DNA of 64,000 bases from Dokdonia sinensis (GTDB lineage Bacteria; Bacteroidota; Bacteroidia; Flavobacteriales; Flavobacteriaceae). Every line of letters starts with the position of its first letter. Position 1 is the stretch's first letter. The translations under genes and the position numbers were made by a program. The notes below the pieces were generated by a model, which saw nothing but the letters and a program-made list of their open reading frames with translations, searched no databases and was not told where the DNA came from. The stretch lies in the NCBI RefSeq assembly GCF_003688895.1, contig NZ_REFV01000002.1, positions 186,001 to 250,000 on the forward strand. Direction: 5' to 3'. Positions 14,431-60,987 of the stretch are shown piece after piece.

Positions 14431-15093
14431 ATGAAACTGAACTTTTTATACTTAATTTTATTTTTTACTTCTTCGCTACTTTGCCAACAGAATTCAAGGG
14501 AAGACATTGGACGAAAAATCTTAGATATTGATTATCCAGAAGGGATTTATAAATCAAAAGAAGATTTCCTTAATAAAACACCCGACAGTAGTTTGAAAAT
14601 AGTAAAAAAAGATTTTGGGCAAAACCGCACAGACGGTCTCATCATACCTCCATTTTTTTATGATTCAAATAAGGATAAGAAGATCAAAAAAGTCTTTGCT
14701 ATTTCGTACGAAGGTGATCTTTATTTTCAAATAAGAGCAATCCTAGACAATAGAAATAAAGAAGATAGAGCTCAAGATTCAAACTCGAAGAATGGATTTG
14801 CAAAAGTTATTATAGGTGGTAAAAATTATCTCTATGCTGAAGCACCTATTGTAAATAAATGGGGTTACGCTGTGGCCTTAAATACTGGTGAAAATACAGT
14901 TAATAATGCTATAAGTACGATCAAAGGAAAAGGAGTTGTATGGGACTTTGTGAATAGAGAGTTTAATATTTTTAGAACTTGCGAGGATTACAATACATTT
15001 ATATCAGACAAACTGCCTGATGCCAAACAAAAATGCGAATTTGGTATGGAGGACATTTTAGAAATCCGAAAAGCTGTACAAGTCATTAAGTAA
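14431..15093 (+). CDS. Secreted protein of unknown function
   Basis: I start the gene at the ATG giving MKLNFLYLILFFTSSLLCQQ, a clear signal peptide; the longer frame begins inside the rplY terminator. The 220-residue product has SREDIGRKILDIDYPEGIYKS after the signal, and two Cys late in the chain (CEDYN, KCEFG). It is AT-rich compared with its neighbours. No family recognised. It lies alone between the prs-rplY terminator and pth. Confidence 0.7.
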   Translation: MKLNFLYLILFFTSSLLCQQNSREDIGRKILDIDYPEGIYKSKEDFLNKTPDSSLKIVKKDFGQNRTDGLIIPPFFYDSNKDKKIKKVFAISYEGDLYFQIRAILDNRNKEDRAQDSNSKNGFAKVIIGGKNYLYAEAPIVNKWGYAVALNTGENTVNNAISTIKGKGVVWDFVNREFNIFRTCEDYNTFISDKLPDAKQKCEFGMEDILEIRKAVQVIK

Positions 15094-57576: not shown

Positions 57577-57604
57577 CATTTCGTTTAAAATGGAAGCCAA
57601 CGGT

Positions 57605-58180
57605 TTACTGCATCTCTGCGGCAGTCTTTTCTAACTCGGCATACCACGCCTCTCCGAACTTACGTATGAGAGCATCTTTCGTAAACTTATACACAGGCAC
57701 TTTGAGCTCTTGCCCAAGTGTACACGCATCATCACATATAGGCCAGCGATGGTAATTTACAGCCGAAAAGGAACTATACTTCTGAACGCGAACTGGATAT
57801 AAATGACAAGAAATAGGTTTGCGCCAGTCTACTTTGCCAGCATTATACGCATCTTCTATTCCACAACTTGCCCAGCCTTTGTCGTTAAAGGTTACATAAG
57901 CACATTCCTTCCCGTTTACAAGTGGAGTTTCTAAATCCCCAAGGTCGGTCTCAATGTGTGTCCCTTGTGCCTCAATCGCAGCGATTCCTTCAGGTCTCAA
58001 AAATGGCTTTACATCTTTATAAATAGCAGCCATAATTTCTGTCTCGTCCTCATCTAGAGGAGCACCAGCTTCTCCTGCAATACAGCACTCGCCCTTACAA
58101 GCATTAAGATTACAAACAAAATCCTTCTCGATAATGTCTTCTGATACGATGGTGTCCTTAAGTTGAAACATAGATTGCAA
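57605..58180 (-). CDS. DUF3109 family protein
   Basis: The 191-residue soluble protein has a Cys-rich start (CNLNACKGECCIAGEAGAPLDEDE) and further Cys/His (CAYVTF, CGIED, CHLYPVR, RWPICDDACTLG). The spacing resembles the YkgJ-type zinc/iron-cluster-binding family, in which DUF3109 is placed. A metal or Fe-S site is therefore likely. The job is unknown. It ends 29 bases after DoxX, convergent. Confidence 0.87.
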   Translation of the reverse strand: MQSMFQLKDTIVSEDIIEKDFVCNLNACKGECCIAGEAGAPLDEDETEIMAAIYKDVKPFLRPEGIAAIEAQGTHIETDLGDLETPLVNGKECAYVTFNDKGWASCGIEDAYNAGKVDWRKPISCHLYPVRVQKYSSFSAVNYHRWPICDDACTLGQELKVPVYKFTKDALIRKFGEAWYAELEKTAAEMQ

Positions 58181-58363
58181 AGATAATGGGTATGAGAATT
58201 AGAACTAAGAAAAATAAGAGGGTAAATTTTTAGTGGCTTTTACGGGAATCCGTGTTTAGTTAGGAGGTAGGATGGTTATATTTACGATGTATCGATAAGA
58301 GAAAACTGTTGTTAATCTGTGTTCTCTTAAGGTATAAGAATAATAGAATTGATTATATAACGA

Positions 58364-58373
58364 GTTGTACGCA
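58364..58373. repeat. Left boundary word GTTGTACGCA of the AT-rich insert
   Basis: GTTGTACGCA, preceded by TATAACGA, is an inverted repeat (9 of 10) of TGCCTACAAC at 59308-59317. The two words bracket the DUF1963 gene and an AT-rich stretch. Confidence 0.55.
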
Positions 58374-58504
58374 ATATCCCAAAAACATTACGCTGAAATA
58401 AATGTTTAGTTTTAAAAAATAGTAATTTAGAGAAAATAAAGTCATTCATTCGGAATTCGGAAGAAATCGAAATTGAAAAAGCGGACAAGGAAAAACTAAT
58501 CAAA

Positions 58505-59302
58505 ATGATTAGACCAACTATTGGAATTAAAACAAAAGCGAGTGATGACAAAAACTTAAAAGTTGGAAAATCTAAAATTGGTGGAAAACCTGATTTGCCA
58601 AAAGACTTTGAATGGCCAAGAGCGAATAATATTCCAATGTTATTTTGTGCTCAATATAATTTGTCTGAACTGAAGAGATTTGACAAAGAAAATATTTTGC
58701 CGAATAAAGGTTTCTTTCATATCTTTTTAAGTCTTGATGAGAAATGGAAAGAATTTAATGGAGTAAATCAAGAATTTAAATTTATCTACAGCGAATCTGA
58801 AAATCTCACCAGAACGCAATTCCCAGAAGACCTTGAAGAAAATCAATCTTTCAATACAGCTTTAATCGAGTATTTTGAATTCTATACAATTCCAGATGAC
58901 GAGAATTACAGATTTTTTGAACTCAATAAAAAGTACGATGATTTATACTTCTATTTTTATCAACCAACAGAGGAGTTTATAACAGAGGAATTATATCAAG
59001 ATTCAGATAATATGCATCAGATTCTTGGATATGACAGGTCAATTCAATCGAGCGTTGTTTATGATTTTGCTTCAAAAGAATTAGGACTTTATGGAGTTGA
59101 TAGTTCGGAATATAAAAAGAGATGGAATGATATATTAGAATTATCAAAAACATTTGAATTGCTTTTACAATTTGACTGTTATGATATAAATTCTGATTTG
59201 ACAAAATTTGGTGGAAGTGGAACTTATTATTTTGGACTATCAAAAACAGATTTAGAAAATAAAAACTTTAACGATATTAAAATGTCGTTTCAAATGACAT
59301 AA
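58505..59302 (+). CDS. DUF1963 (YwqG-like) protein in an AT-rich insert
   Basis: The 265-residue protein starts at MIRPTIGIKTKA and carries the DUF1963 pattern: VGKSKIGGKPDLPKDFEWP, IPMLFCAQYNLSEL, and GGSGTYYFGLSKTDLEN at the end. Function unknown. The reading frame stays open for 36 codons upstream of the ATG with protein-like residues (NSEEIEIEKADKEKLIK), so the true start may lie further upstream with a non-ATG codon or may have been cut. The gene is clearly more AT-rich than its neighbours and sits between inverted boundary words, as a gained accessory gene would. Confidence 0.75.
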   Translation: MIRPTIGIKTKASDDKNLKVGKSKIGGKPDLPKDFEWPRANNIPMLFCAQYNLSELKRFDKENILPNKGFFHIFLSLDEKWKEFNGVNQEFKFIYSESENLTRTQFPEDLEENQSFNTALIEYFEFYTIPDDENYRFFELNKKYDDLYFYFYQPTEEFITEELYQDSDNMHQILGYDRSIQSSVVYDFASKELGLYGVDSSEYKKRWNDILELSKTFELLLQFDCYDINSDLTKFGGSGTYYFGLSKTDLENKNFNDIKMSFQMT

Positions 59303-59307
59303 AATAC

Positions 59308-59317
59308 TGCCTACAAC
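59308..59317. repeat. Right boundary word TGCCTACAAC of the AT-rich insert
   Basis: TGCCTACAAC, in the context ACTGCCTACAACACC, follows the DUF1963 stop codon by 5 bases. It is the inverted counterpart of GTTGTACGCA at 58364. Confidence 0.55.
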
Positions 59318-59487
59318 ACCAGCATAAAACAAAACATACCCTCAGACCCATCCACTCATAACAAATCTGCTTCTTCCTAAAAATTATCTTATCTCAGAAA
59401 AAAGGAAACCCTCAAAATCCGTATCTTGATGTGATACTAAAAATTCTTTTTTGCGAAAGCAAAAGAAACCTGTCAAAACTTGATTAG

Positions 59488-60987
59488 ATGAAAACCTTCC
59501 TTGCGCTCCTCCTCTCACTACCATTCCTAACGATAGCCCAAACCAACTACGACACTCAAATAAACGAAGTTCTCTCAAAAACTCTAAAACAACACCGCGA
59601 ACTGGTAAGTATCCCAAACCTCCCAGCAGATCCTGACTTGATGCTTAAAAACATTTCTTGGGTACAAGAAAAATATAAAGCACTGGGTTTTAAAACCAGC
59701 TTATTAGAATCAAGCACACTTACTATCCTTCTTGCAGAAAAAGTTTACGATCCAGAATACAAAACGGTGCTCTTTTACGTCCATATAGACGGTCAACCCA
59801 TAAATCCCATGACGTGGAATCAAGAGGACCCGTTTACGCCCGTGCTTAAAGAACAAGATGCAGCTGGAAATTGGCAAGCGATAGACTGGAGTAAACTGGA
59901 TGGAAACATTAATGATGAGTGGCGCATCTTTGGCCGTGCTGCGGCAGATGATAAGGCGCCAATAACCATATTTCTTACGGCACTAGAAGTATTACAGCAG
60001 CAAAATAAAACACCAAAATTTAATGTCAAAATCATTTTTGACCCCGAAGAGGAGTATGGGTCTAGCGCGTTACTTTCTACCTTAGCTACTTATAAAGCAC
60101 GCTACGCTGCAGATTATTTTGTGGTGATGGACGGTCCGGCGCACGATTCTAATAAGCCTACGCTCACCTTTGGGTGTCGCGGGATAGCGACCTGTGCCAT
60201 CACCACCTATGGTGCACGATTACCGCAGCATAGCGGACATTACGGAAACTATGCGCCAAATCCAGTCTTTAGACTGACACATTTACTATCTAGTATGAAG
60301 GATGAAGATGGACGAGTGCTTGTAGATGGTTTTTATGAAGGGATTAAAATCACTCCAGAAGCTGCCGAAGTTCTTTCTTCAGTTCCTTATTCTAAAGCTC
60401 AATTTAATGCCGCTCTCGGGATTCACTCCGCAGAAAAAGTAGGGGATACCTATCAAAAAGCGCTACAATTCCCCTCCTTAAACATTCGCCAGATTGGAAC
60501 TTCGTGGACCGGCGAAGGCCTTAAAACCGTCGTGCCAGAATATGCTGTTGCAAACATAGATGTGAGACTCGTCCCAGAAACCGACGGCGATAGCCAACTA
60601 GAAAAAATCAAAAAACATATCAAGGACGAAGGATACTACGTCATAGACCGCGACCCAACCGAGGAGGAGCGTCTGACCTACGCAAAAATTGCAAAGTTTA
60701 CAGGAAAGACATCTGTAAATGCCTTTAGAACGCCAACTGATTCTGAATTTGGTAAGAACATCCGAGGACGTCTGGTAGAAGCTTTTGGCGAAAACCCCGT
60801 GACTATCCGCATTATGGGCGGCACCGTACCTATTGTACCCTTGATAAATACGCTGGATATTCCTACGGTTATTTTGCCTATGGTAAATATGGATAATAAC
60901 CAGCATAATCCCAACGAGAATATACGTGTGGGCAATATCAGACAAGGGATTAAGATTTGTCTTGCGCTTCTGGAGACGGAGTTCTAA
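59488..60987 (+). CDS. Secreted M20 family zinc peptidase
   Basis: A 499-residue protein with a signal peptide (MKTFLALLLSLPFLTIAQT). The di-zinc site is present: H98 in FYVHIDGQP, D in GRAAADDKAP (about 153), the catalytic Glu and zinc Glu in FDPEEEYGS (about 190-192), D in VVMDGPAH, and the last His in MDNNQHNPNENIR. The inserted dimerisation domain spans about 230-390. It resembles the CPG2/peptidase V branch acting on dipeptides or amidated amino acids. Confidence 0.92.
   Translation: MKTFLALLLSLPFLTIAQTNYDTQINEVLSKTLKQHRELVSIPNLPADPDLMLKNISWVQEKYKALGFKTSLLESSTLTILLAEKVYDPEYKTVLFYVHIDGQPINPMTWNQEDPFTPVLKEQDAAGNWQAIDWSKLDGNINDEWRIFGRAAADDKAPITIFLTALEVLQQQNKTPKFNVKIIFDPEEEYGSSALLSTLATYKARYAADYFVVMDGPAHDSNKPTLTFGCRGIATCAITTYGARLPQHSGHYGNYAPNPVFRLTHLLSSMKDEDGRVLVDGFYEGIKITPEAAEVLSSVPYSKAQFNAALGIHSAEKVGDTYQKALQFPSLNIRQIGTSWTGEGLKTVVPEYAVANIDVRLVPETDGDSQLEKIKKHIKDEGYYVIDRDPTEEERLTYAKIAKFTGKTSVNAFRTPTDSEFGKNIRGRLVEAFGENPVTIRIMGGTVPIVPLINTLDIPTVILPMVNMDNNQHNPNENIRVGNIRQGIKICLALLETEF

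Follow-up and report, generated by a model that had tools for sequence, protein, structure and literature searches.

The single-gene unit at positions 58364 to 59317 of a 64,000-nucleotide stretch of the Dokdonia sinensis genome (contig NZ_REFV01000002.1; the whole stretch is referred to as the window) is likely a relic gene cassette of an integron-like system, as inferred from sequence alone. All of the evidence is comparative sequence; neither recombination nor circles nor gains or losses between strains were observed. The unit and its surroundings comprise the following features.

58331 to 58363, forward strand: attI-like left flank ending in TATATAACGA, directly before the crossover G|TT; the core is shared with other loci, and the reach past the core is inferred
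58364 to 58373: left end word GTTGTACGCA, by sequence position
58364 to 58378, forward strand: cassette start, R' box side, GTTGTACGCAATATC; 4 of 10 homologies start at 58364, and 12 of 15 positions are complementary to the right end
58402 to 59302, forward strand: DUF1963 gene, by Pfam PF09234 and the start codons of relatives
59303 to 59317, forward strand: cassette end, R'' box, ATACTGCCTACAAC side, by position and comparison with relatives
59308 to 59317: right end word TGCCTACAAC, by sequence position
59318 to 59335, forward strand: possible remnant of the left arm of a lost hairpin site, resting on weak evidence (likeness to relatives judged by eye)

The sequence-only reading had described an AT-rich insert with a single DUF1963 gene, bracketed by inverted 10-bp words with one mismatch. 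This description held, except that GTTGTACGCA and TGCCTACAAC have 934 bases between them, not 935, and that the inverted repeat is longer than claimed, reaching 15 bases (GTTGTACGCAATATC versus GTTGTAGGCAGTATT, the reverse complement of the right end; identity 12/15). The GC content of the unit is 0.288, compared with 0.42 in the 5 kb to its left and 0.394 on the right side up to the window end, and only 2 of 1,261 sliding 954-bp windows were equally AT rich. Its gene matches DUF1963 (Pfam PF09234) with an E value of 8.5e-27. Ten of 11 relatives use a start 34 codons upstream of position 58505; the ATG at this place (58402) is out of frame in the window, where the ATG-bearing open frame covers 58505-59302 (265 aa). 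By themselves, the end words are weak evidence; GTTGTNNGCA occurs three times in the window versus 1.56 times expected, and three or more occurrences were reached in 23 of 100 shuffles. It is the comparison with relatives that gives the words their significance, since the homology stops at them.

A genome scan retrieved relatives of the DUF1963 protein at 13 loci, with named hosts that include Xanthomarina, Winogradskyella, Polaribacter, Gelidibacter, Aestuariibaculum, Lacinutrix, Tenacibaculum, and Marivirga. Window positions 57601-60000 were then compared by blastn with these 13 loci and two further loci. Ten near-full-length matches, with 80-85% DNA identity, started at 58347-58405 (four exactly at 58364) and ended at 59304-59329 (six at 59318-59319). 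Identity was 74% for L058 and 69% for the G206 copy, a place covered by both L015 and L020, and L059 and L061 matched in parts only. As judged by eye, the sequences outside the unit are unrelated among the relatives. Both words are found at the unit ends in 7 of the 12 loci compared and are not found in the other 5 (L051 and L057-L060); the right word of the window is one base off that of the seven relatives bearing it (TGCGTACAAC). The end words are thus the termini of a mobile one-gene unit. Hairpin sites flank this unit on both sides in L049, L052, L053, L055, and L056, on the left only in L050, and on the right only in L054, L057, and L060.

The end words of the window are probably just the outer ends of such a hairpin site, an imperfect palindrome of ~125 bp with the ends AAC (R'') and GTT (R'), which was lost in the window copy. 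A set of 18 sites of 122-128 bp was obtained with a regular expression that already required the arm words, so that their pairing is partly due to selection, but wobbles and double changes were not asked for. L050 and L054 were left out of alignments A2 and A3, in both cases after A1. Aligned as bottom strands, the 18 sites form a 20-pair structure with 98.9% of the cells paired, versus 29-53% in slid controls, and 8 pairs show double changes. For the 150 best model-fitted sites, 98.3% were paired, 12 pairs had double changes, and one G.T pair was present in all 150 and another in 140. Bottom-strand G.T pairs occupied 47 cells of the 18 sites, versus 2 for the top-strand equivalent. Folding predictions also indicated that the bottom strand is more stable in 198 of 209 sites, compared with 80 of the 230 segments used as controls; this energy test was limited to sites of 136-166 bp, which removed 26 of 235. 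The hairpin spacers are unequal (5-6 versus 3 nt), the L-stem bulge column is filled in 5 of the 18 sites, and no conserved extrahelical base was seen. No match to Rfam was obtained in L117, L114, or L106.

The words alone were rejected as a search key: AACGNGTTGTNNGCA was found in 11 of 99 genomes and was mostly chance-like by context, L012 being a real site. The covariance model R1 replaced the word search. R1 matches were found (i) in 175 of 199 genomes of the family at an E value of 0.001 (one genome per genus, 15 candidates scored per genome), (ii) in all 25 chosen genomes, most of them single contig and with up to 126 candidates scored, of which five had 102-126 matches and the others down to 2, and (iii) in 70 of 296 genomes of the phylum sample (10 candidates scored per genome). 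The right-hand sites of L050 (5802-6020) and L057 (5801-5944) have other arm sequences and belong to more distant hosts; they may point to additional families of sites that R1 fails to detect or detects only with low scores.

Twenty stretches contained 239 R1 matches, 235 of which were used, as 4 were cut by locus ends. Within each of the 20 stretches the sites are uniformly oriented, L109 and L110 having one site each. Intact arrays consist of head-to-tail cassettes, each starting at G|TT and carrying one forward gene and the ~125-bp palindrome at its end, and have a tyrosine recombinase and an attI-like site at their head. Over 204 cassettes, the start matched the reverse complement of the cassette's own end at 7.33 of 9 positions, versus 3.29 (sd 0.10) for shuffled ends. 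Dropping 6 cassettes with an end match of less than 5/9 left 198, in which start position 11 is always A, opposite a wobble partner in 163. The differences between start and end included 188 bottom-strand wobbles and a single top-strand wobble. The longest ORF was forward in 154 of these cassettes and reverse in 2, and none of at least 50 aa was present in 42. In L114 (443-19502), thirty sites occur in 20 kb, many ~280-310 bp apart, which likely represents an array of apparently short cassettes without a long gene.

These data bear on further claims of the sequence-only reading. Its remark that similar words flank genes in other Flavobacteriia held, TATAACGAGTTGT being found before single cassettes or after a recombinase gene in L012 and L144. 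Its suggestion of gene-cassette ends was supported by the many different single genes enclosed by such end pairs in related genomes. Its statement that the core does not match GTTRRRY was also correct, and this motif is present in only 11 of the 198 cassettes.

The cassettes encode diverse proteins. Among 148 cassette proteins, 72 Pfam families were matched at an E value of 1e-5, and the commonest were found in at most 3 proteins each. PADLOC returned 126 models, which include relatives of HerA, PtuA, AbiGi, and candidate defence proteins, nearly all with one member each. Since a single protein can be matched by several models, and since general ATPases are among these models, a defence role of cassette genes is merely suggested as a possibility.

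In all of 13 loci, the start of the first cassette lies 26-134 bp past the stop codon of the recombinase gene; in nine loci, 12 of 13 bases at this junction matched the cassette's own end, and in four, 10-11 bases did. Nine of these loci had been picked where sites were known nearby, and L118-L121 were picked by their recombinase. In loci studied later, the junction was found at 45, 81, and 63 bp in L156, L157, and L159, respectively, and at 276 bp in the plasmid locus L148; no junction was found near the recombinase of L158. The first-cassette junction often lies at the core ATATAACnA|GTT. Among the 13 loci, the left-flank core is exactly ATATAACNA|GTT in five (L104, L107, L110, L112, and L119) and has one extra base in L108 and L111, and the other left flanks differ. 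L144, from the genus of the window, contains a full-length recombinase followed by TATAACGA|GTT. The core also precedes a cassette in the window (TATATAACGA|GTT), L127, and L012, and no recombinase was seen in those stretches. The left flank of the window unit is thus likely to be an attI-like insertion point lying outside the cassette, which is again an inference from sequence alone. A second recombinase class, of 274 aa in the frames read, lacks the N-terminal domain found in most array recombinases and is divergent from the array in L145, L154, and L155. The junction is ~112 bp from the start of the recombinase gene in L145 and L155, and none was found near that gene in L154.

In 100 genomes, the presence of a high-scoring recombinase (TIGR02249 E value under 1e-25) goes with that of five or more sites (both in 21, neither in 62, p 1e-8, uncorrected for shared ancestry); five or more sites without such a recombinase were observed in 9 genomes and the reverse in 8. 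The cut-off of TIGR02249 (IntI) was reached in none of the 100 genomes and in none of 8 proteins. The IntI additional segment is lacking: between aligned blocks, L119 has 17 residues versus 60 in IntI4 (2a3v). The best NCBIfam model was NF040815 in all 8 proteins scanned and exceeded its cut-off in 3, and the best solved homologue is XerA (5hxy); class 1 IntI1 is also a homologue, with 31% identity. In a phylogenetic tree, the array recombinases are set apart from the housekeeping Xer proteins of the genus; the long IntI1 branch leaves the placement of IntI1 unresolved, and two Xer rows are partial. Most array recombinases have an extra N-terminal domain of ~90 residues, predicted by model to adopt a small alpha/beta fold (pLDDT 82). 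A Chryseobacterium plasmid (L148, NZ_CP041688.1, 6038-27054) contains an array-type recombinase, small same-strand genes, and three R1 sites (E values of 5e-8 to 4e-5); it is possible, then, that the platform itself is mobile.

The window copy is likely a relic that has lost its hairpin, changed one end word, and acquired a frameshift near the gene start. R1 detected no site in the window at E values up to 1, and no hairpin was predicted at the right end of the unit. The empty site that the sequence-only reading had proposed to look for in a close relative was found: in three genomes of the same genus, the DUF3109 and M20 peptidase genes are 197 bp apart and the cassette is absent. Neither of the results that would have refuted that reading therefore occurred, given this empty interval and the many single genes between end pairs. 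The relatives are too diverged to resolve the insertion boundaries from the empty interval, and six other relatives with the M20 gene were, by eye, not syntenic. We infer that a cassette carrying DUF1963 was inserted at an attI-like site located between the genes for DUF3109 and the M20 peptidase and later decayed; in this decayed state, it is not expected to move on its own. Intergenic regions of the genus contain a recurrent palindromic word similar to GCTTTCGCGAAAGC, which is present at window positions 59440-59470 and also upstream of the M20 gene in L027-L029.

Elsewhere in the genome of the window, R1 matches were found at E values of 5e-18, 2.6e-6, and 0.012, all close to contig ends, and a second-class recombinase with an uncertain start is located on contig C13; this genome therefore contains such a system or did so in the past. 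A second single cassette of the same genome, near 10630-10802 of L127, is at an attI-like core, and the contig ends there in what looks like the start of an IS3-family transposase gene.

The system is inferred to work like an integron. In this view, the recombinase would bind the folded single bottom strand of a cassette site, cut it at G|TT, and join it to double-stranded attI, resulting in capture, or to another cassette site, resulting in excision or shuffling, in the manner of IntI acting on attC. The strand would be chosen through the asymmetry of the central spacer together with the conserved G.T wobbles, which would pair on the bottom strand only.

Four alternative explanations were considered. 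(i) The window unit may be the last piece of a whole local integron from which the recombinase was deleted, and not a single insertion at a scattered attI-like site. In favor of this reading, which we consider the less probable of the two by a modest margin, the left flank of ~33 bp resembles the attI-like region after recombinase genes, and other such pieces are located at contig ends of the same genome. Against it, no recombinase remnant was noted adjoining the unit in the best matches examined (tblastn of array recombinases upstream of the unit gave no convincing match among these; best E value 0.039, within the M20 gene), and three relatives have neither recombinase nor cassette at the locus. 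(ii) The system may be a canonical integron with a true IntI elsewhere in the genome, the neighboring recombinase being a bystander. The site architecture and array layout are as in integrons and IntI1 is homologous to the array recombinase, but this is very unlikely, given that none of 100 genomes exceeded the TIGR02249 cut-off and that the neighbor heads the array in 13 of 13 loci and its score tracks the number of sites. (iii) It is also very unlikely that the unit is a nonautonomous MITE-like transposon, with the words as terminal inverted repeats and a transposase acting in trans. Short inverted ends around one gene and copies dispersed in different places would agree with this, but there is no target-site duplication (the 10-bp flanks of the window unit are not the same, TATATAACGA versus ACCAGCATAA), each unit's end is matched to itself, the units of an array share one orientation, and units are separated by a folded site; empty sites without an attI-like or hairpin site, and units without duplications, were partly seen. 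(iv) An ordinary horizontally acquired AT-rich gene with coincidental inverted words, compatible with the unremarkable word count in the window and with the 5 of 12 loci of the gene lacking both words, is all but excluded, because the homology of relatives stops at the words, relatives share exactly this unit with other flanks, and the end rule holds in 198 of 204 other cassettes.

The relic cassette of an integron-like system hence remains our preferred reading. In a bolder version, which as a joint claim we favor only slightly over its negation, a second and widespread integron system would exist in Flavobacteriaceae and some other Bacteroidota, with arrays of superintegron size and XerA-like recombinases that lack the IntI segment; a DRD/HARP-like N-terminal domain, present in most of these, would read the folded hairpin, and invariant G.T wobbles, not extrahelical bases, would set the strand choice. 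If recombination occurs as inferred, this would represent a gene-capture system with more than 100 cassette sites in some genomes that is largely unreported in a major family. It would also mean that cassettes can recombine on folded single strands without need of the IntI additional segment, with a new basis for strand choice, and would give access to a large reservoir of cassette genes, most of them unnamed and some related to defence proteins. The arrays may have escaped notice, as both recombinase and recombination sites miss the standard integron signatures.

Integrons in this phylum are not new, since the Bacteroidetes/Chlorobi group and Bacteroidota have been named among integron-bearing phyla (PMC2426708 and PMC9668308). 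IntegronFinder 2.0 (PMC9024848) reported Bacteroidetes with only In0, plus one complete Salinibacter integron, and the site models of PMC8352920 include no Bacteroidota. Our search of the open-access literature, which did not extend to preprints and subscription journals, found no description of such arrays in Flavobacteriaceae, and we do not claim priority. The lytic Polaribacter phage P12002L (L160) contains one R1 site (14492-14633, E value of 1.8e-12) beside the hypothetical gene P12002L_0024 and is conceivably a cassette vector; blastn of a single site against phages returned no match. For this phage, attC sites have been published (PMC9892861) that cluster with genes for DNA methyltransferases; the annotation places these genes at 29-32 and 37-39 kb, and the R1 site is at 14.5 kb. 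As the published attC sites are not at the R1 site, the published IntI1 assay was not taken as evidence.

A comparison with known systems revealed the following. (i) The array recombinase resembles XerA, XerC, and XerD, and NF040815 is XerA_Arch, a "site-specific tyrosine recombinase/integron integrase"; unlike these proteins, it is located at cassette arrays and mostly has the N-terminal domain. The predicted fold of this domain is closest to the XPB damage-recognition domain (Z 6.7-7.2, 54-57 residues, rmsd 1.7-2.1) and the SMARCAL1 HARP domain (4o66; Z 4.4, 48 residues, rmsd 1.7). With Foldseek E values of just 0.06-0.1 and Z scores under 8, which may mean a common arrangement, this likeness is merely suggestive, and hairpin binding is a hypothesis. 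(ii) As in Treponema integrons (PMC3607928), the recombinase gene reads toward attI and has the same direction as the cassettes. The Treponema recombinase is treated in that article as an IntI, and the Flavobacteriaceae system differs further by its second, divergent layout with a shorter recombinase (L145 and L155). (iii) IntI integrons, for which the attC features were taken from PMC2727003, share the one-gene cassettes in one orientation, the ~125-bp palindromes with AAC and GTT ends, the better folding of the bottom strand (here as predicted), the G|TT junction, and the attI-like site at the array head. The differences are the rarity of GTTRRRY, which is a soft criterion given that only AAC and GTT are conserved (PMC2727003), the invariant G.T wobbles, the lack of a visible conserved extrahelical base in the L-stem, and a recombinase that remains below the IntI cut-off and has no additional segment. 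Because this segment was looked for and is lacking, we did not file the system as an IntI integron; the most fitting description is a variant of the integron kind, distinct from IntI integrons.
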